DNA from: Rhodocyclaceae bacterium
GTDB lineage: Bacteria; Pseudomonadota; Gammaproteobacteria; Burkholderiales; Rhodocyclaceae
Direction of reading: 5' to 3'
NCBI GenBank assembly: GCA_020445765.1
Contig: JAGRFY010000028.1
Span: forward strand, 39,992 to 103,991
DNA length: 64,000 bases
Part shown: positions 53,986-63,649 of the stretch, piece by piece
How positions within the stretch are numbered: the stretch's first letter is position 1
Layout: each line of letters begins with the position of its first letter
Notes under the pieces: generated by a model
What the model was told of the DNA's origin: nothing
Seen by the model: only the letters and a program-made list of their open reading frames with translations
Databases searched by the model: none
Translations under genes and position numbers: made by a program

Positions 53986-54885
53986 CTACTGGCCTGGAGC
54001 TGCCGTGCTGCGGCCCGCGATCAAGGTGCGGAGCGGTGCGGCGCACAGCAGCGCCAGCGCCAGCCCCAGGGCGACCCAGCTGAAATCGGTCGGCACTTCG
54101 CGGCGTCTTGCCCTGGTGCCCGAGCGCATCGCACGGGACAGGCCGGCGACGCTTTCCAGTCTGAGGTAGTCGAGCCCGGTGCGGGCCGCGAGCGCTTGCA
54201 GGTGGTTTTCGCGCAGCGCCGACAGGTGCTCGTCGTGCGGCGCTGCATCCGCGTTCTGGACGACTTCGTCGGCATGCCAGAAGCCGTTGAAGCGACCGGG
54301 GGTGTCCTGTTTCGGTATCGGGCGCGGCACGTCGCCGCCGGTGCCGATCACCATGCCGCGGATCTCTCCCTGGCGAATGTCGCCGAACAACGCCGGCACC
54401 GTGCCTTGCAGCGGAGGTGATTCGTGACCGTCGCTGAAGAACAGCAACTGTGGCTCGCCGCCGACGTCACGGGCGGCCCGCAGCGCCCAGTAGAGCCCCT
54501 TGGCGACCTCGCTTGCCTCGGCCCAGCGCATGCGGTCGTCGACCTGCTCGAGCGTCGACAGCAGATCGCCGTAGTGATCGCAGACGTCGACCGGGGCGAG
54601 CAGCGTCAAGCTGCGGTAACCGGTGAATGCGGCCAGACCGACCTTCGATCCGCAGGGCAGCTCGGTCAAGGCCGTGGCCAGGGCGCGGCGCGCGAACGCG
54701 AGGCGCGATAGCGGCTTGTCGTGCAGGCGGTAATCCGCGACGCCCATGCTTTGCGTGATGTCGAACACCGCCAGATAGTCGAAGCTGGCGCGCGGCCAAG
54801 GCAGCGGCGGCATCGACAGGGCCAGGGCGAGCAGGCCGCCGGCGAGCAACAATCGCTCGGTGCCGCGCGATCGCAGGCGGTTCAC
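53986..54885 (-). CDS. mxaL: MxaL-like von Willebrand A domain protein
   Basis: This 299-residue protein has a membrane helix near 12-30, a VWA domain and a second helix near the C-terminus (WVALGLALALLCAA). The MIDAS is atypical: DITQSMG (D-x-T-x-S). Blocks LACGS-like LPCGSKVGLAAFTGYRSL, RMRWAEASEVAKGLYWALRA, and RPIPKQDTPGRFNGFWHADE match MxaL, needed for methanol dehydrogenase maturation in methylotrophs. The start GTG 54885 overlaps the mxaK stop (GTGA). It is the last gene of the cluster. Confidence 0.85.
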   Translation of the reverse strand: MNRLRSRGTERLLLAGGLLALALSMPPLPWPRASFDYLAVFDITQSMGVADYRLHDKPLSRLAFARRALATALTELPCGSKVGLAAFTGYRSLTLLAPVDVCDHYGDLLSTLEQVDDRMRWAEASEVAKGLYWALRAARDVGGEPQLLFFSDGHESPPLQGTVPALFGDIRQGEIRGMVIGTGGDVPRPIPKQDTPGRFNGFWHADEVVQNADAAPHDEHLSALRENHLQALAARTGLDYLRLESVAGLSRAMRSGTRARRREVPTDFSWVALGLALALLCAAPLRTLIAGRSTAAPGQ

Positions 54886-55415
54886 GGCAAGGCCCCCTTG
54901 CCGCCGCGCATCGTTGTGATCGCCCGCTCGCTCGGCACCGGTGCGGCGGCTTCCATTTCCTGGCGCGCTTCCTCGGGTGCCAGCCACAGTGCCCGCTCCA
55001 GGTTGTAGCGCGCATCCCAATCGCCGGCATCGAGTCGCAGCAGGTCGCGATAGCTCTCCTTGGCGAGTTCGAGATACGGCAGGGCATCGTCTGCCGAGCG
55101 TTGGCGGCGGCGTAGCCCCTCGCGCAGGTGGAGATTGCCGAGGTTGAACAGCGCGGTGCGTTGCAGCGGGCCCGGCTGACCGACGATCAGGGCCTTGTAG
55201 GCGAGCAGGGCACCGTCGTAGTCGCCCGCGGCGGCGCGGGCCATGGCTGCGAGCATGGTGGATTCGGGCGATGGCGGCAGGGCGCCCGCGGTGGGCCTGG
55301 CGATTGTGTTCGCCAGTCGATCCACCTGCCGCCAGTGCGTCGCCTGGACGGCCGCCAACACGGCCAGCGTGGCGGCGGCCGAGGCGAAGGCGAGGTGGAT
55401 GCTGCGGCGCTTCAA
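54882..55415 (-). CDS. mxaK: MxaK-like membrane-anchored TPR protein
   Basis: This protein of about 177 residues has one N-terminal membrane helix (HLAFASAAATLAVLAAV) and then TPR-like helices: ARAAAGDYDGALLAYKAL, RTALFNLGNLHLREGLRR, and ELAKESYRDLLRLDAGDWDARYN-type. It ends with LERALWLAPEE and matches MxaK of the mxaACKL set. The start is unclear: TTG 55415 overlaps the stop of a small frame (TTGA), and an in-frame GTG at 55463 adds 16 residues. Its stop overlaps mxaL. Confidence 0.8.
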   Translation of the reverse strand: MKRRSIHLAFASAAATLAVLAAVQATHWRQVDRLANTIARPTAGALPPSPESTMLAAMARAAAGDYDGALLAYKALIVGQPGPLQRTALFNLGNLHLREGLRRRQRSADDALPYLELAKESYRDLLRLDAGDWDARYNLERALWLAPEEARQEMEAAAPVPSERAITTMRGGKGALP

Positions 55416-55591
55416 GCGGGCACCCCCGGCAGGAGCTGGCTGGGCCCGGCCGGCGGAGCCCACAGGCGCGACGCGACGGTCGTCGGTACCGCCATACGCG
55501 GTGCCCGGGCCTGGACGAAGGCGATCGCGCTCCTGGTGCGCCGGCCTCGTCGGCAGCGTCGACGGCGCGACGGCACGGCCACCGGATTCAA
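55412..55591 (-). other. possible small frame between mxaC and mxaK
   Basis: A 59-codon frame starts at a TTG overlapping the mxaC stop (TTGA) and ends in a TGA overlapping the mxaK TTG (TTGA). The product is Arg/Pro/Ala-rich (SRRRRCRRGRRTRSA) with no family likeness. It fills a 172-base gap in an otherwise overlapping operon. It may be noncoding; other mxaC-mxaK pairs are expected to abut. Confidence 0.2.
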
Positions 55592-56604
55592 CGCAGGCCC
55601 CGCAGTTGCCAGCGACCCGCTGCCAGCAGGATCGCCACCAGCAGCAGTGCCGCGGCGATGATGCCGCGACTGTAGTCCTGCCGCGGAATCCGCTCCTCGA
55701 AGTCGAGCGGATGGTTCTGCTGCCGGCCGACGTCTTCGACAGCCGCTGCAAGGTCTTCCGGGCTCTCGGCCTGATACGCCCGGTACGGCGTCGGCAGGGT
55801 TTCGAAGAATCGGTGCAGGGCGACTTCCGGAATCGCTTCGCCGGCCTCGCCGGCCTGTTCGAGATCGGGCCGCCCGAATCCCTTCAGGTAGATCCAGTAG
55901 AGCGCCACCCGCTGCCGTTCGAAGCCGGCACGGATCGCCAGACGGGTGTCCTCGTCGAGCCGTGCACCGCCGTCCGAGACCAGCAGAATGATCCGGCTCC
56001 CGGTGTAGGCCCGATTCTCGAAGCGTGCGACCGATGAAATCAGCGCGCGCCCGACATCGGTTTCCGACAACCCGCGATGGACGCCGCCGGCGGTGATGCC
56101 GGCCTGGACGACTTCGTCGTGCTGGGTGAAGGGCACGACGTGAAGCGCGCTGGCAGAGAAGAAGCTGACGGCAAAGCGGTCGTCGGGGCGCCGCGCGACG
56201 AACTCGCCGAGCAGCGTGCGGGCAGCCTGCGATTTCACCGGTCCGCGCGACTGGGTCTGATGGCGGATATCGTAGGCGCTGAGTTCCCGCCAGTCGCTCG
56301 GCAGCATGCGCTCGTCCATGCTGCGACTGCGATCGATCAGCAGCAGCACCTCGGCACCGCGCCCGGTGCGCAGCGCCAGGCTCTGGGGGCGCCCGGGTGC
56401 CGCCAGGGCGAGCACCACGGCCGCGATCGCCAGCGCCGAGAGTACGCGCAGCGCGAGCCCGACCAGGCGCCCGAGACGATCCTCGGGCAGCCAGCCGACA
56501 TCGGGATAGCCGCTGGCCTCGGTGCCGCGGGCCCACAACGGCAGGGTCGCCAGCGGCATCAGGGCCAGCCATTCCGGGCGCAGGAAGTCGACCCCGGCGA
56601 TCAT
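55588..56604 (-). CDS. mxaC: MxaC-like (BatA-type) VWA membrane protein
   Basis: This 338-residue protein has helices near 10-25 and 47-68 and a VWA domain with intact MIDAS (LLIDRSRSMDE, D-x-S-x-S). It has a C-terminal helix (GIIAAALLLVAILLAA). FFSASALHVVPFTQHDEV and LLVSDGGARLDEDTRLAIR are in the domain. The position after mxaA and before mxaK, and the size, fit MxaC. ATG 56604 overlaps the mxaA stop (ATGA). Confidence 0.87.
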   Translation of the reverse strand: MIAGVDFLRPEWLALMPLATLPLWARGTEASGYPDVGWLPEDRLGRLVGLALRVLSALAIAAVVLALAAPGRPQSLALRTGRGAEVLLLIDRSRSMDERMLPSDWRELSAYDIRHQTQSRGPVKSQAARTLLGEFVARRPDDRFAVSFFSASALHVVPFTQHDEVVQAGITAGGVHRGLSETDVGRALISSVARFENRAYTGSRIILLVSDGGARLDEDTRLAIRAGFERQRVALYWIYLKGFGRPDLEQAGEAGEAIPEVALHRFFETLPTPYRAYQAESPEDLAAAVEDVGRQQNHPLDFEERIPRQDYSRGIIAAALLLVAILLAAGRWQLRGLR

Positions 56605-57467
56605 CGTGAGTGGCGCCGTTCGATCTGCATCAGCGCACGGCACAGCCGGCGCGGGGAGAACTCGTCGGTGCCCGCCCGGTCGGCAAAGAAGCGCTCGGCA
56701 GACAGTCGATAGAAGCGCTCGATATCGTCGGCCAGCAACCGGAATTCGGGGCGCAGCGCAAAAAGTCGTTCGATACTCGAGCGGTCGACGACGCCGCCGG
56801 CGCTGGCGTCGATGGCCCGGTGCAGGGCAAGCCAGCCCGCGGCGTCGCCGTCGGTGCATCGGCGCATCGCAACCCACGCGCGAGCGAAGGGCAGGGTGGC
56901 CCGATCGCGCCGGATGCGCCACAGCCACCAGCCCGACCAGCCGGCCAGCACCAGCGCCAGTGCCGTCAGGGTCCAGCGCAGCCGTGCCGCCAGTGGTCCG
57001 GGCGCCGGCGCCGCTGGCCGCCGATCCGGACGCAACTCGCCGAGGCCGCTTTCGGTGAACGCGTCGCGGCGGCTGATCGGCGCGATCGACAGCGGCACTG
57101 CCGCGATCTTCAGGCCCGGTCCGCCGCCGGCGGCGTCGAGGGTGAGGCCCGGCAGTGTCACCACCTGGAGTTGCGGCGGCGCGTTGATCAACTGATAGCG
57201 GAGCACCAGCCAGCCGTGACCGTCGATGTCGTCGACCTGCGCTACGCTGCGACGCGCAAACCAGTTGCCGACCCGGCCGAGCGCCGGCATTTCGGCGACG
57301 GCGAACGGTCCGCCGTCGGCCTCGAGGCGGACGCGCTGCTCGACCACGTCACCGAGCTGGTGGCCGAATGCGCGAATCGGGGCGACCGTTGCCGGAAACG
57401 GGGTCAGCTCGGCGATCGCGTGCAGGGCCGGCAGCCACATCAGTACCGATGCCGCCAGCCGCCTCAT
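56601..57467 (-). CDS. mxaA: MxaA-like membrane protein
   Basis: This 288-residue protein has a signal peptide (MRRLAASVLMWLPALHAIAE), a periplasmic beta-rich region (GHQLGDVVEQRVRLEADGG), and a membrane helix at about 157-177 (LTALALVLAGWSGWWLW). The cytoplasmic C-terminal domain contains CTDGDAAGWLALHRAID and FSPRRLCRALMQIERR. This fits MxaA, involved in calcium insertion into methanol dehydrogenase. ATG 57467 is supported by GAGGG upstream and the signal peptide. A 100-base gap separates it from mxaS. Confidence 0.83.
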   Translation of the reverse strand: MRRLAASVLMWLPALHAIAELTPFPATVAPIRAFGHQLGDVVEQRVRLEADGGPFAVAEMPALGRVGNWFARRSVAQVDDIDGHGWLVLRYQLINAPPQLQVVTLPGLTLDAAGGGPGLKIAAVPLSIAPISRRDAFTESGLGELRPDRRPAAPAPGPLAARLRWTLTALALVLAGWSGWWLWRIRRDRATLPFARAWVAMRRCTDGDAAGWLALHRAIDASAGGVVDRSSIERLFALRPEFRLLADDIERFYRLSAERFFADRAGTDEFSPRRLCRALMQIERRHSR

Positions 57468-57567
57468 CGGACGATCCCTCGATGGCGGCGATTCGGTCGG
57501 TCGCGATCGACGCGCCGCGCCGGGTCGGGGCCACGAGCACCGCCATCGGGCGGTCGTGCGGGCGCGC

Positions 57568-58419
57568 TCACGCACCCTCCAGAAAATGGCGGGTCAGGGC
57601 GTCGCCGACGAACGGGTCGGACATGTAGAAGGCGCGAATGCCGCGCGCCTGGAAGCGCAGGTCCAGCGCTCGGCGCCGCTCGGCGACCGCCGCGCGCCAG
57701 CGTCGCCGCAGCTCGGGTCGGAGCCACAATTCGCGCAGGCGCCCGTTCTCGAGATCGCGCAGGCGGAGCAGTCCGTCACCGGCGGGCGGTTCGGTCTCGC
57801 TCGGGCTCCAGATCACGATCGGGGTGACCCGGGCGCGGCCGAGCAGGTCGAGCGCGGTATCGAGTTCGGCGTCATGGCGATGAAAGTCGGAGACCAGGAA
57901 CACCTGCGCCTGGCGGCCGGCGAGCGGCGCCAGCGCATCGATCAGGCCGCCATGACCGGCAGAACGGCACTCGGCCGTGCGCAACTGCTCTGCATACTGC
58001 GCCACCAGGGCGGGCTGGCGACTCGGCGCGAGCCGCAGTTCCGGACGCTCGGCGTCGTCGAATGCCGACAGCGACAGGGGATCGCCTGCCGCGGTGGCTG
58101 CGCGTCCCAGCGCTGCGACGAAATCGGCCGCCAGGTCGAGCTTGCGGGACGGCGTGCCGAACCCCATCGATGCAGACAGGTCGATCAGCGCACACACCGG
58201 AATATGGCTGCGCTGGCGAGCCAGGCGCACCAGCCATTCGCCCAGCGGATCCCGCAGGCTCGCCCGCAGGTCGATGCGTCGTGGATCGGGGCGCGCGAAC
58301 AGGCTGGCGTGGGCCACGAAGTCGTCGCCGGCGCCGAGGGTCAGGCCGGCGTGGGCGCCCGGTCGAAAGCCGCCGACTCTGGCACCGACGCGATACTGGA
58401 AGTCGTGGGTCGCGCTCAC
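57568..58419 (-). CDS. mxaS: MxaS-like DUF58 protein
   Basis: This 283-residue soluble protein of the DUF58 family has a VWA-like fold and MIDAS-type motif ALIDLSASMGFG. The N-terminal part GARVGGFRPGAHAGLTLGAG and the end IRAFYMSDPFVGDALTRHF are family-like. DUF58 proteins are standard partners of MoxR ATPases. The start GTG 58419 overlaps the moxR stop (GTGA). Confidence 0.88.
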   Translation of the reverse strand: MSATHDFQYRVGARVGGFRPGAHAGLTLGAGDDFVAHASLFARPDPRRIDLRASLRDPLGEWLVRLARQRSHIPVCALIDLSASMGFGTPSRKLDLAADFVAALGRAATAAGDPLSLSAFDDAERPELRLAPSRQPALVAQYAEQLRTAECRSAGHGGLIDALAPLAGRQAQVFLVSDFHRHDAELDTALDLLGRARVTPIVIWSPSETEPPAGDGLLRLRDLENGRLRELWLRPELRRRWRAAVAERRRALDLRFQARGIRAFYMSDPFVGDALTRHFLEGA

Positions 58420-59438
58420 CGCGGGGTCGCGACCTGTTCGAGCATGGCGTCCATCAGGCGATCGGCAATGGCTGCGCGCCTCAGCTCGTACACCGGCGTG
58501 AAGAAGATCCGATGCACCAACGCCGAGGGCATCACCGATCGGACGTCTTCCGGCGTCAGGTAGTCGCGTCCGGACAGCCAGGCGACGACGCGGGCGGCGC
58601 GGGTCAGCGTCATCATCGCTCTCGGGCTGGCGCCGGCGAGCACCAGATGCGCCATGTCGACGCCGTCGATGCGGATGCCGAAGCGGGCCGGGTCACGGGT
58701 CGCGTCCCACAGATCGACGACGTAGCGCTCCAGTGACCCACTGGCCCGGACGCAGCGCTGGACCTCCGCGGCCACATCGTTCAACTGCTGCCAAGGCAGC
58801 AGGCCGGCGGCGACGGACCCGAGCAGGGCTTCGACGTCGTGAAAACGTGGCTCGAACACCAGCGCGCGGCGGATCGCGAAATCGTCCGGGGTCGGCATCC
58901 GCAGTTCGAACATGAAGCGGTCGCGGGCCGCCGACGCGAGTTCGAAGGTCTCCTCCTTCTCGACCCGGTTGCGGTCGGCGAACACCGTCATGTGCGGGAA
59001 TTCGAAGGTCTCGTTGAAGGCGCTGACGCTGCGCTCGGCCATCGCACGCAGCAGCAGCGACTGCACCTGAGGGCGCGCCCGATTGATCTCGTTGAAGAAG
59101 AAGGTCACGAGCCGGTCGCGGTGGCGCAGCAGCGGCCCCGGATCGATCCGGGGCTTGCCGCCGGCATCGACGTAGGTGTGATAGACAAGATCGCCGGGCA
59201 GCAGGTCGACGGTCCCCTCGACCCGTTCGAAGTCTCCGCCGATCGCCCGCGAGAAGGCGCGCAGCAGGGTCGTCTTGCCGACGCCGACGTCCCCTTCGAG
59301 CAGGACATGGCCACGCGCGAACAAGGCCACGTTGATCAGCCGGATCACCGCTTCCTGGCCGATCACCGCCTTGCCCACTTCCGCCTCTACGCGCAACGCC
59401 AGGGCGCGCCAGTCCTGCAGCCGTTCGTCTGCACTCAT
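58416..59438 (-). CDS. moxR: MoxR family AAA+ ATPase (MxaR-like)
   Basis: This 340-residue AAA+ chaperone-like ATPase has Walker A GDVGVGKTT (K55). The Walker B region reads FFFNEINRARPQ, so the usual Asp before the Glu is Asn116; the Glu is kept. MAERSVSAFNETFEFPHMTV and NRVEKEETFELASAARDRF (sensor/arginine-finger region) follow. The C-terminal helical lid contains SPRAMMTLTRAARVVAWLSG and LTPEDVRSVMPSALVHR. MoxR proteins work with VWA proteins to mature metalloenzymes. It is the first gene of moxR-mxaSACKL and is divergent from the tyrosinase-VWA gene. Confidence 0.93.
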   Translation of the reverse strand: MSADERLQDWRALALRVEAEVGKAVIGQEAVIRLINVALFARGHVLLEGDVGVGKTTLLRAFSRAIGGDFERVEGTVDLLPGDLVYHTYVDAGGKPRIDPGPLLRHRDRLVTFFFNEINRARPQVQSLLLRAMAERSVSAFNETFEFPHMTVFADRNRVEKEETFELASAARDRFMFELRMPTPDDFAIRRALVFEPRFHDVEALLGSVAAGLLPWQQLNDVAAEVQRCVRASGSLERYVVDLWDATRDPARFGIRIDGVDMAHLVLAGASPRAMMTLTRAARVVAWLSGRDYLTPEDVRSVMPSALVHRIFFTPVYELRRAAIADRLMDAMLEQVATPR

Positions 59439-59821
59439 GTCGCCGGGTGTCTCCTGTCGACCGGTCTGCCGGTCTTGTCGGTGGCCCCGCCAGCGCGCAG
59501 GGGCGTGACCATGCTAGTGATCGCCGCGGTGCCCGGTCAAGCCGTGTCGACCGACGCGTGGCGGCAGCTGTAGACGGATGCGCGGCGGATCCGGAAACGG
59601 GCCGTCATCGCCAAGCAAGTGAACGGGTTCACCCGATGGCGGTGCCCCACGTCATATCGCGGAGGGTGGCCTGCCGCGAAGATGCGATCAGGATTCCGAG
59701 GACTGCCGCTCTAGCGTGCAGGCGGGACCGATCCAGTGGTGATCCGTGGCGCCCTGCAGCTCGGCCGCGGCCAGCCGTCACCACCTGTCACCTTGTCGCC
59801 AGCCCGATGGAGGAAGTCACC
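59439..59821. other. 383-bp divergent intergenic region moxR / tyrosinase-VWA
   Basis: No gene is seen in this gap. It should hold both divergent promoters, but no clear -35/-10 pair is visible. A dyad GTGAACGGGTTCAC (6-bp arms, 2-base centre) lies at 59619-59632 near the middle and could be a shared operator. A GGAGGAA box precedes ATG 59822. Confidence 0.4.
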
Positions 59822-62677
59822 ATGAAGCCCGTTCGCCGCAACGTCGCGCACCTTTCGCAAGTCGAACGCGACGCGTTCATCAATGCGATCGTTCAACTCG
59901 ACTCGTCCCGCATCTTTGCCGACGGCGTTTCGTACTGGGACAAGCAGGATCAGATCCACCAGGGCACCCATGTCCATGGCGGACCATCGTTCCTTCCGTG
60001 GCACCGGGAACTGCTGAATCGCTTCGAGGCGATGCTGCAGGAGGTCGACCCGTCAGTCGCACTGCATTACTGGGACTGGACCGAGGATCCACGCACCGCA
60101 TCCGACGGCGTCGGCGGCACCGTGAACCTGTTTGCCGCGTCCACCTTCGGCAATTCGAGCGGTCGTGCGGATGCGCCCTTCGACGGATTCGACAATGGCG
60201 GCGTACTTGCTGGCAGTCGCGACGACACCGGTGACCCGGTCGATCCGCCGCAGGAGATCACGCGCAACATCGATCCGGGCGCGCCGGGCGTCGATTCAGA
60301 CGACGATATCGTCACGTCTGCCGACCACCTCGCACAAGCGGCCCAGTGGGCACATTTCAGGAACGTCCTGGAAGCTTCTCCAAATCACAACGCCGTTCAC
60401 AGCTACTTCGGGGTGGGCAGCACGATCCAGGCGTCGCACTCGGCGTTCGAGGATCCGTTCGTGTTCCTATTGCATTCGAACATCGATCGGCTCTGGGCAA
60501 TGTGGCAGATGCAGCCGGGACAGGAGTGGCGGCTCGATCCCGACCAGGTCTATGGCAGCGAAACGGACGACCCCGAAATCACCGAGTACCTCGAGCCCTG
60601 GTCGGGGACCGTCCATTTCGGTGATCCGATCCCGCCGTGGGATCCGGCCGATCCCGGCAACGAGATCGTGTTCAGGAGTTCCAGGCATCCGACGGTCGTG
60701 CAGCCCCCCTGTTACGACACCTTGCCGGTATCGGTCGAACTCGACTCGCCGTCGCCCGGCGCGCCGATCCTGTTCAACGACATACCGGAAGGTACCGAGA
60801 CGGTGCGGGCGGCCGTCTTTTCAGTACGTGCGTGCGAGGACGTCACGCTCGAGATCGTGGCCGGACCGGGCGCGGACTTTGGGACGCCGCTCGGCGCCAG
60901 CGTTGTCGAGCCCTATGCCTCGGGGCTGCCGGCGCTGGCCTATGTCTGGATCTCCTACACCGGTACCAGTGCCGGCGCCGCGGCGGCCGGCAGCGTAACG
61001 ATCCGCTGCGAAGAGACCAGTGAGGAGTGGATCATCCCGATCAGCGCGAACACGATCGCAAAGCCGAGGGTCGCGTCGATGCTTGTCCTCGACAAGTCCG
61101 GCAGCATGGCCTCGAGTTCGGGAATCCCCGGCGAGAGCCGGCTCGACGTGCTCAAGTGGGCTGCGCCGCACTTCGTGCACGCGATGGGTGACGACGATGG
61201 TATCGGCATCGTCGAATTCGATCACGACGCCTATCCGGTGATGCCGGTCACGGCGGCGGGGCCGCTGATGTTCGGCGCCGGCCGCGCGCAGGCACTCAAT
61301 GCCATCAACCTCCATGACGAAGACGGCGGTGCGACCTCGATCGGGGACGGCATCGACCTGGCCCACGCCACCATCGATCCGGTCGCCGGCTACGACCACA
61401 AGGCAATGATCGTGTTTACCGACGGTCACGAGAATGCGTCGCAGTACATCAGCGATGTCGCGGGTCTGCTCGGCGAACGCATCTTCGCGATCGGACTCGG
61501 CCGCGCCGATCAACTGGATGTGGCAATTCTGGATGCGCTGACCAGCAGTTCCGGTGGCTATTTGGTGATGACCGGGGATCTCGATATCGATGACCAGTTC
61601 CGATTGAGCAAGTACTTTCTGCAGGTTCTCGCCGGCGTCGCCAACACCGCGGTCGTGGTCGATCCGGAAAGCAGGCTGCGGCCCGGCGACAAGCACCGGA
61701 TTCCGTTCGGCTTGACGAACGCCGACACCCAGTCTGACGTGATCCTGCTGTCGTCCGACCCCTGGGCCATCGACTTCCATCTCGAAGCGCCCGATGGACG
61801 AATCATCACGCCGGCCATCGCCGGCACGCTACCGGGCGTGACCTACGCGACGTCGGATACGCTGCACATGTATCGGGCGGCATTGCCGATTGCGGTCGGC
61901 GGCGGTGCCCATGAGGGCACCTGGCACGCGGTACTGACGGTCGATGCATCCGATTTCAAGAAGTACGTCTCGAAGCTGCGCGACAGCCAGGCCAATCGCT
62001 GGCCGACCAGCACGGCGATTCATGGCATTCCGTACAACCTGTGTGTGCATGCGAAATCCAATCTGCGCCTGGCGGTTTCGGTGTCGGCGGACAGTCACGA
62101 ACCAGGTGCGTCGGCGTCGCTGCAAGCACGCCTGGTCGAATCCGGCCTGCCCGTGGGTCACCGCGCCAGTGTGCAGGTCGAACTTCAGCGTCCTGACGGA
62201 ACGACTGTCCGATTCGCGCTGCAGGAAACCGCCCCGGGCGAGTTCGACCACGTCGTGACACTCTCCCGGGCGGGTGTCTATCAGGTTCGGTTTCTGGCTC
62301 GCGGCAGGACGCGCCGAGGCGAGCCCTTCGCACGCGAGGAACTGCGAACCATCGGCGTCGCAGTCGGCGCCGACACACCGCGTCCGCGCAGACCGGAGCG
62401 AGCGCGGCATCCATGGTGCGATCTGCTGAAATGCGTGTTGTCGGACGGCGCTGGCGGCAAGCTGCTCGAACGCCTTGGCGTCGACCCGCAGCACCTCTCG
62501 AAATGCCTCGAGGCAGTCTGCCGCGCGTCGCAGCCGGTGGATTCGACCTTCACCGGCCGCGGACCTGCGGCCCTCGCGCAGGCTGCGAATTCGGCGGATC
62601 TCGACGAACTGCGCATCTTCTTCGCACGGCCGGAAGTCAAGGCGATGATCGAGCGGCTGTCGCGGCCGTCCCGGTAA
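59822..62677 (+). CDS. tyrosinase-domain / von Willebrand A domain fusion protein
   Basis: This 951-residue protein has a tyrosinase (type-3 copper) domain at about 1-230. CuA histidines are H46 (or H50), H52 and H61 (HGGPSFLPWHRELLNRFE). CuB histidines are H189/H193 (NHNAVH) and H218 in DPFVFLLHSNIDRLW. A beta-rich region (~300-415) and a VWA domain (~418-600) follow, the latter with intact MIDAS D424-S426-S428 (LDKSGSMASS), TSIGDG and FTDGHEN. Ig-like regions and a helical C-terminus with CDLLKCVLSDG follow. No signal peptide is visible. GGAGG precedes ATG 59822. The role as phenol oxidase is inferred. Confidence 0.9.
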   Translation: MKPVRRNVAHLSQVERDAFINAIVQLDSSRIFADGVSYWDKQDQIHQGTHVHGGPSFLPWHRELLNRFEAMLQEVDPSVALHYWDWTEDPRTASDGVGGTVNLFAASTFGNSSGRADAPFDGFDNGGVLAGSRDDTGDPVDPPQEITRNIDPGAPGVDSDDDIVTSADHLAQAAQWAHFRNVLEASPNHNAVHSYFGVGSTIQASHSAFEDPFVFLLHSNIDRLWAMWQMQPGQEWRLDPDQVYGSETDDPEITEYLEPWSGTVHFGDPIPPWDPADPGNEIVFRSSRHPTVVQPPCYDTLPVSVELDSPSPGAPILFNDIPEGTETVRAAVFSVRACEDVTLEIVAGPGADFGTPLGASVVEPYASGLPALAYVWISYTGTSAGAAAAGSVTIRCEETSEEWIIPISANTIAKPRVASMLVLDKSGSMASSSGIPGESRLDVLKWAAPHFVHAMGDDDGIGIVEFDHDAYPVMPVTAAGPLMFGAGRAQALNAINLHDEDGGATSIGDGIDLAHATIDPVAGYDHKAMIVFTDGHENASQYISDVAGLLGERIFAIGLGRADQLDVAILDALTSSSGGYLVMTGDLDIDDQFRLSKYFLQVLAGVANTAVVVDPESRLRPGDKHRIPFGLTNADTQSDVILLSSDPWAIDFHLEAPDGRIITPAIAGTLPGVTYATSDTLHMYRAALPIAVGGGAHEGTWHAVLTVDASDFKKYVSKLRDSQANRWPTSTAIHGIPYNLCVHAKSNLRLAVSVSADSHEPGASASLQARLVESGLPVGHRASVQVELQRPDGTTVRFALQETAPGEFDHVVTLSRAGVYQVRFLARGRTRRGEPFAREELRTIGVAVGADTPRPRRPERARHPWCDLLKCVLSDGAGGKLLERLGVDPQHLSKCLEAVCRASQPVDSTFTGRGPAALAQAANSADLDELRIFFARPEVKAMIERLSRPSR

Positions 62678-62890
62678 CGACGTTTTGGCCATCGCCACGG
62701 GCGGTGCCGGTTGGTCGGCGCGGCTCGCGGGGGCGCCCTGCAGCAGGTGCGGTTCGACAGCGGCTGATGCCCGCATGTCGCGCATGCCCGCCGACGCACC
62801 CTCGACAGGCGCATTGGCGTTCCGGTGCTCGCAATCCTGATGGTACGGCTCCAGAATATGCCGGTCTTCGACGCGAACGGACACGGCGGC

Positions 62891-63649
62891 ATGGTGGCAG
62901 GCTGGCAGGCGTTGTTGCTCGATCTGTCGGGTGTGTTGTTCGACGGCCGGCGGCCGATCGACGGCGCGCTCGATTTCATGCGCCGCGTCAGGCGGTGTGG
63001 CGTTCCGCTGCGCTTCGTGACCAATACCGCGAGCAAGCCGGCGGTGGCGATCGCCGACGAGATGCGCCAGATGGGCTTCGAGGTGGCGCACGAAGAGTTG
63101 TTCACGGCCCCCCGGGCCGCCCACGACTACGTCGTCGCCAGGGGGCTCAGGCCCTTTTGCCTGGTGCATCCGGCGATTCGAGCCGAATTCGACGACGTGC
63201 CGCAGTCCGACCCCGATTGCGTGCTGCTGGGCGACGCCCGCGACGACTTGAACTATCGCAACCTCAATCGCGCTTTCCGGCTGCTGCATGACGGCGCGCC
63301 ACTGATCGGGATCGGTCTCAACCGCTATTTCATGGACGAGGACGGCATCATGCTCGACACCGGGGCCTTCATTCGCGGGCTGGAGTGGGCAGCCGGCATC
63401 GATGCGGTGATCATGGGCAAGCCGAGCGCGGATTTCTTCAAGCTGGTGGTTGCCGACACCGGCCAGGCGGCGGCCGATTGCCTGATGGTCGGCGACGACG
63501 TGGCGGCCGACGTCGCCGGCGCGATCGCGGCCGGACTGCAGGGCTGCCTGGTGCGCACCGGCAAGTACCGTGCGGGCGACGAGGCATCGCTGCCGGATCG
63601 GGCGATGGTCATCGATCGGATCGGGGCGCTTGCGCTGCCGGGCCGTTGA
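62891..63649 (+). CDS. HAD-IIA family hydrolase
   Basis: This HAD phosphatase of about 252 residues belongs to the NagD/LHPP-like IIA group. Motif I is LLLDLSGVLFDG (D-x-S variant: the second Asp is replaced by Ser, as in the TIGR01458/LHPP-like type). Motif II is RFVTNTASKP, and the C-terminal motifs are IMGKPSADFFKL and LMVGDDVAADVAGA. The substrate may be a small phosphorylated metabolite or phospholysine. The start is uncertain: ATG 62891 matches the family N-terminus, while ATG 62858 or GTG 62825 would add 11-22 residues. Confidence 0.88.
   Translation: MVAGWQALLLDLSGVLFDGRRPIDGALDFMRRVRRCGVPLRFVTNTASKPAVAIADEMRQMGFEVAHEELFTAPRAAHDYVVARGLRPFCLVHPAIRAEFDDVPQSDPDCVLLGDARDDLNYRNLNRAFRLLHDGAPLIGIGLNRYFMDEDGIMLDTGAFIRGLEWAAGIDAVIMGKPSADFFKLVVADTGQAAADCLMVGDDVAADVAGAIAAGLQGCLVRTGKYRAGDEASLPDRAMVIDRIGALALPGR

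Follow-up and report, generated by a model that had tools for sequence, protein, structure and literature searches.

The stand-alone mxaRSACKL cluster of a Rhodocyclaceae bacterium as a probable trans-acting maturation module, with XoxF as its most likely client

What do the accessory genes of methanol dehydrogenase do at a locus that has no methanol dehydrogenase? This question is raised by a stretch of 64,000 nucleotides from a Rhodocyclaceae bacterium (assembly GCA_020445765.1, contig JAGRFY010000028.1; G000:C180:39992-103991 in our genome set), which is referred to here as the window and which belongs to a genome of 4.84 Mb that is 94% complete and divided into 210 contigs. At window positions 53986-59438, the genes moxR-mxaS-mxaA-mxaC-mxaK-mxaL lie in their canonical order on a single (minus) strand, and their divergent neighbour encodes a tyrosinase that is fused to a VWA domain. 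We propose, with a probability of about 0.68, that this mxaRSACKL set is a MoxR/VWA maturation module that acts in trans, most likely on the XoxF-type dehydrogenase that is encoded on contig C101.

The cluster and the dehydrogenases of its genome

The original prediction had read the six minus-strand genes as mxaR-S-A-C-K-L, and the Pfam matches, the gene order and the relatives all agree with this reading. Both parts of a MoxR/VWA system, the MoxR AAA+ ATPase and its partners with a VWA domain and a metal ion-dependent adhesion site (MIDAS), are present, as indicated by Pfam for moxR, mxaS and mxaC (Table 1) and by motifs that were read by eye. The MoxR protein, which is 52-88% identical to the MoxR of 25 related loci, has the Walker A motif GDVGVGKTT and the Walker B motif FFFNEINRA; MIDAS-like motifs were found in MxaS (DLSAS) and MxaC (DRSRS), and MxaL has DITQS. 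Hydropathy predicted no membrane segment in MxaS, two hydrophobic segments each in MxaC (44-73 and 309-334) and MxaL, and a single N-terminal one in MxaK. MxaA, MxaK and MxaL matched no Pfam family at the cut-off that was used for the cluster proteins (E <= 1e-3), and no NCBIfam match above cut-off was obtained for any of the seven proteins (the six of the cluster and the tyrosinase-VWA protein); the names mxaA, mxaK and mxaL therefore rest on gene order and on BLAST to the relatives. For mxaA, the ATG at 57467, with its signal-peptide-like start, was preferred by eye over position 57440 of the gene caller and 57575 of the longest open reading frame. The genes had also been described as coupled, which holds for the 4-nt overlaps at three junctions (moxR/mxaS, mxaA/mxaC and mxaK/mxaL) but not for the gaps of ~100 nt between mxaS and mxaA and ~172 nt between mxaC and mxaK, given the preferred mxaA start and an mxaK start at 55415. 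Judged from these features, the six genes appear to form the standard mxaRSACKL maturation module, and the role in maturation itself is probable. The usual Walker B motif has the D-E form; Asn takes the place of the usual Asp (FFNE.NRA) in all 26 MoxR proteins, those of the window and the 25 related loci, and seems from this comparison to be fixed across the mxaR subfamily.

As had been predicted, the window contains no methanol dehydrogenase and, more broadly, no pyrroloquinoline quinone (PQQ) alcohol dehydrogenase: all seven TIGR03075 matches of the genome, three of which (on C53, C101 and C186) are above cut-off, are located on contigs other than that of the window. Two of the seven, those of C101 and C53, were compared with the PDB. 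The C101 protein was identified as XoxF by its best match, 6dam XoxF (6.2e-291), and by its WDFD motif (D324, D326), the second Asp of which we take to be the mark of lanthanide enzymes. Near XoxF on C101 there are, above cut-off, a MoxJ-type protein from a xoxJ-like gene and SoxH- and SoxYZ-related quinoprotein proteins, together with a xoxG-like cytochrome that matches TIGR03874 below the NCBIfam cut-off. The locus further includes a YVTN beta-propeller and a Polyketide_cyc2 protein that is mxaD-like. Farther along this contig, MfnB-like (below cut-off), ATP-grasp, amino-acid-kinase and DUF6513 genes were found, which are presumably part of a tetrahydromethanopterin set. The protein encoded on C53 is closest to the quinoprotein ethanol dehydrogenase 6zcv (2.2e-257), and WD(F/Y)D-type motifs occur in the C53 and C186 proteins as well; pqqE is present on C164. 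An MxaFI enzyme elsewhere in the genome was considered and rejected, as MxaI was absent from the matches (best PF02315 E 0.29 in the 94% complete genome) and the two PDB-compared dehydrogenases are XoxF-like and ethanol-dehydrogenase-like. A protein of 229 aa that adjoins xoxJ on C101 (L040:4375-5064) has no Pfam or NCBIfam match; its relatives adjoin XoxF loci and also mxaRSACKL in L057, L075 and L079, which makes this protein a possible, as yet unnamed component of the system.

Distribution, neighbourhood and constraint

The distribution of the set was surveyed in 399 genomes of the order, using a line of 1e-20 for mxaS and of 1e-110 for XoxF-type proteins, the latter of which also admits MxaF and some other PQQ dehydrogenases at 42-48% identity. 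In this survey, mxaS was found in 35 genomes, an XoxF-type match in 52 and the two together in 33 (Fisher p 2e-32, without correction for kinship). The carriers of mxaS without an XoxF-type match were G061, in which an XoxF fragment lies at a contig end beside the cluster, and G388, which is 85% complete. All 35 carriers are spread over 14 families; MxaI was found in only six of the 399 genomes, each of them an mxaS carrier and all from one family, and XoxF was shown by 28 of the 29 MxaI-free carriers. A carrier in the order typically has mxaRSACKL, no MxaI and an XoxF that is encoded elsewhere. This co-occurrence, together with the C101 locus, supports the suggestion of the original prediction that the set serves, in trans, a dehydrogenase encoded away from it. 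In a second set of 101 relatives, for which the lines were E < 1e-30 (chosen by us) for mxaS and 1e-150 for XoxF, 12 genomes had mxaS, 16 had XoxF and 11 had both; at 1e-5, mxaS was matched in 25 of the 101, the weaker matches being probably DUF58 paralogues. Neither mxaS nor XoxF was found in G004, a genome of the same genus that is listed as 100% complete. It offered no clean empty site: matches to the window within the 19.9 kb that was fetched are limited to the ATP-grasp and alpha-E genes, which does not allow an excision to be claimed.

The neighbourhood of the set was compared in 25 fetched loci that had at least four of the six genes by tblastn. The gene order is identical in all of them, and all six genes were detected in 20; L052, L056, L058 and L070 were short by one or two, and blastp of the called genes recovered mxaA in L056, L058 and L070 and mxaK in L058, with mxaK of L052 unmatched. 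The sequence of L053 starts inside the cluster. XoxF with xoxG/xoxJ genes adjoins the set in L048, L051, L057, L072 and L079. The genes that directly flank mxaRSACKL encode XoxF, XoxJ, a beta-propeller and an mxaD-like protein in L057 and L079, and XoxG, XoxJ, a beta-propeller and an mxaD-like protein in L075. The canonical mxaFJGI-RSACKL-mxaD operon is represented by L056, in which MoxJ and MoxG are above the NCBIfam cut-offs and MxaI matches PF02315 at 6.4e-42. Some genomes have two or three mxaRSACKL sets (L048 and L049 in G010; L055, L056 and L058 in G084), with one set beside XoxF or MxaF and the others standing alone, hinting at client specialisation.

Five genomes of the same genus retain the six open genes and, as far as can be judged from sequence, the cluster shows no sign of breakdown in them. 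The ratio of nonsynonymous to synonymous substitution rates (dN/dS) against three same-genus genomes ranged from 0.11 (moxR) to 0.60 (mxaA), with 0.05-0.21 for the control genes. The MoxR tree unites the five proteins of the genus in a single clade (100/99), which is nested in a broader group (100/100) together with the copies of G010, G060, G177 and G441. The deep forks, including that of the mxaFJGI-linked copy, are unresolved and the tree therefore gives no order of clients.

The tyrosinase-VWA neighbour

The divergent neighbour had been described as a tyrosinase-VWA fusion, which its PF00264 and PF13519 matches bear out, with the start corrected from 59447 to most likely ~59807, the position that matches the beginning of its relatives. 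A simple scan detected no hydrophobic segment in the protein, and the DKSGS motif of its VWA domain (residue 429) is intact. His57, His66, His194, His198 and His223 are in the expected motifs and are presumably copper ligands. In G001, G002 and G005, which belong to the same genus, moxR is followed by a haloacid dehalogenase (HAD) gene and then by an ATP-binding cassette (ABC) gene, both named by eye, and in G003 the spacing between moxR and the ABC gene is only 1.0 kb, which leaves no room for the 2.9-kb tyrosinase gene. The gene is absent from this spot in 4/4 genomes of the genus that carry the cluster. In the nucleotide comparison with G001 and G002, homology ends at ~59541-59552 and picks up again at ~62890-62895. 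On this synteny, the HAD gene would mark the pre-insertion neighbour of moxR, the tyrosinase-VWA gene looks like a functionally unrelated addition between the two, and the mxaRSACKL set would be older than the tyrosinase gene in this lineage.

Across the order, tyrosinase-VWA matches at 1e-10 were found in 6/399 genomes, including that of the window, in a search that scored at most two candidates per genome. The only other near-full-length homologue is that of G076 (46%), where different contigs encode the fusion (C7) and the mxa set (C3). A wider scan of genome contigs revealed eight further loci: two metagenome-assembled genomes (MAGs) of Gammaproteobacteria at 75%, loci of Lentzea, Tessaracoccus and Cellulomonas at 45-47%, and three loci that match the tyrosinase part only. 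These loci include five full-length relatives, of which three are actinobacterial. No mxa or XoxF-locus protein was found by tblastn in these eight loci or in L067 (G076), with flanks of at most 8 kb on each side. The gene was probably gained horizontally, and the gene and the mxa set would appear to be present or absent independently of each other. The family, with a length of ~900-950 aa, is patchy, being represented by the window, L086-L090 (the two MAGs and the three Actinobacteria) and L067; the matches listed in a literature search for tyrosinase with VWA included no bacterial fusion.

Table 1. Features of the mxaRSACKL locus (window positions)
Feature	Position	Strand	Description
moxR (mxaR)	58416..59438	-	MoxR-type AAA+ ATPase, 340 aa; PF07726 (AAA_3) 1.5e-26
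mxaS	57568..58419	-	DUF58/VWA protein, 283 aa; PF01882 2.8e-17
mxaA	56601..57467	-	no Pfam match; named from order and 22-66% identity in relatives
mxaC	55588..56604	-	membrane-anchored VWA protein, 338 aa; PF13519 (VWA_2) 3.2e-09
mxaK	54882..55415	-	177 aa; no Pfam match; named from order and homology
mxaL	53986..54885	-	299 aa, VWA-like; no Pfam match; named from order and homology
tyrosinase-VWA fusion	59807..62677	+	956 aa; PF00264 1.8e-27, PF13519 2.3e-12; divergent from moxR
HAD-like hydrolase (named by eye)	62825..63649	+	adjoins moxR in G001, G002 and G005

Weighing the readings against each other and against known systems

In the mechanism that we propose, the MoxR AAA+ ATPase would work with the VWA/MIDAS proteins MxaS, MxaC and MxaL, the last two of which have predicted membrane segments, and MxaA and MxaK would join them in the completion of a periplasmic PQQ dehydrogenase. 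The step most likely involved would be a remodelling of the apoenzyme so that the active-site metal can enter. The client would most likely be the lanthanide-type XoxF on C101, on which the module would act in trans; we infer both XoxF as the client and metal insertion as the step. Several observations weigh against this. The mxaS gene is missing in 19/52 XoxF-type genomes, and XoxF can therefore do without the mxa set; 16 of these genomes have matches of >60% identity, and the other three (G098, G281 and G349) have matches of only 42-48%. In only 6/22 tabulated MxaI-free carriers is mxaS within 20 kb of XoxF, to which G061 adds a linkage through its XoxF fragment. The dN/dS values of mxaS, mxaA, mxaK and mxaL (0.28-0.60) exceed that of every control gene. 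Moreover, lanthanum (La) was reported to lower mxaRSACKL of Methylorubrum extorquens AM1 by 4.3 to 7.0 log2 units (PMC6414531), and MxaR and MxaS to fall with La in Methylocella (PMC9291206); because the accessory levels drop with La where MxaFI exists, a role for XoxF is counted against in these organisms. Finally, co-occurrence is not mechanism, and other PQQ dehydrogenases are also present.

One of these could be served by the module, alone or besides XoxF, with the ethanol-dehydrogenase-like protein of C53 and the pair on C186 as examples. The number of TIGR03075 matches, the similarity of the C53 protein to 6zcv and the shared WD(F/Y)D-type motifs are consistent with this, as is a second cluster in G033 (L052) that adjoins a PQQ dehydrogenase-like gene, named by eye; we nevertheless consider it unlikely, as the five related loci in which the set stands beside XoxF with xoxG/xoxJ point to XoxF. 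Less likely still is that a lost MxaFI system left the set behind as a relic, which is how the authors of a study of Sphaerotilus read the partial sets that they describe (PMC13300288). The absence of MxaI from the matches and the fast evolution of mxaS, mxaA, mxaK and mxaL would fit a relic, but 29/35 carriers in an order where the set spans 14 families are without MxaI, all six MxaI genomes are from one family, the six genes are still open in all five genomes of the genus, and dN/dS is <1 throughout. The original prediction had offered maturation of the tyrosinase-VWA protein as one of its two readings. In its favour are the divergent layout of the genes, the known partnership of MoxR ATPases with VWA proteins and the intact DKSGS motif. 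This reading is now very improbable: linkage was found in 0/4 same-genus carriers and in 0/8 loci elsewhere, nor was it found in G076, and the flanks that were fetched for the five full-length relatives contain neither moxR nor any mxa gene. The protein was rejected as a client on the basis of synteny in the genus, the search across the order and the genome-contig scan. It had also been stated that a complete mxaFJGI operon elsewhere, together with a neighbour that is not conserved, would point to plain methanol oxidation; the neighbour is indeed not conserved and a dehydrogenase operon does exist elsewhere, but it is of the XoxF type and not mxaFJGI.

Maturation of XoxF by the cluster remains the reading that we prefer, and a broader version of it can be put forward tentatively, at somewhat less than even odds: in this order, mxaRSACKL may be primarily a XoxF maturation machine, as a lanthanide or PQQ loader, with its use for MxaFI as a special case. 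The basis is that XoxF accompanies the set in 34/35 carriers from 14 families and MxaI occurs in one family only. No factor dedicated to the lanthanide loading of XoxF is known to us, and none appeared in the titles and abstract openings that the literature searches returned. In any case, our survey speaks against calling mxa accessory genes relics by default where mxaFI is missing.

Proteins of the mxa operon have been suggested to act in calcium insertion, and an mxaD homologue was required only with La (PMC7391723). The likely mode of action resembles that of NorQ/NorD and other MoxR AAA+/VWA chaperones, which likewise pair a MoxR ATPase with a VWA/MIDAS partner, and of which the NorQD pair is a solved metal-insertion system; the client there is nitric oxide reductase, and the likeness is one of mechanism only (PMC13036017). 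With the mxaFJGIRSACKLD operon of L056, the cluster shares the accessory genes, their order and their homology, but it has no adjoining mxaFJGI and MxaI was not found in its genome. As in Sphaerotilus with XoxF5 and without MxaFI, the accessory genes occur here without the catalytic subunits, whereas, unlike in the partial sets described there, all six genes are present and open (PMC13300288). The closest parallel is in Methylophilaceae, for which the core genome was reported to include XoxF, XoxJG and MxaRSACKL, with extra mxaRSACKL clusters away from mxaFJGI and some strains without mxaFI (PMC4109929). Stand-alone mxaRSACKL in mxaFI-free genomes has therefore already been published for that family, and the cluster described here agrees with those in the six genes, their order, their location apart from mxaFJGI and the use of XoxF by the genome; it differs in belonging to another family and in the tyrosinase-VWA gene that arrived beside moxR (PMC4109929).

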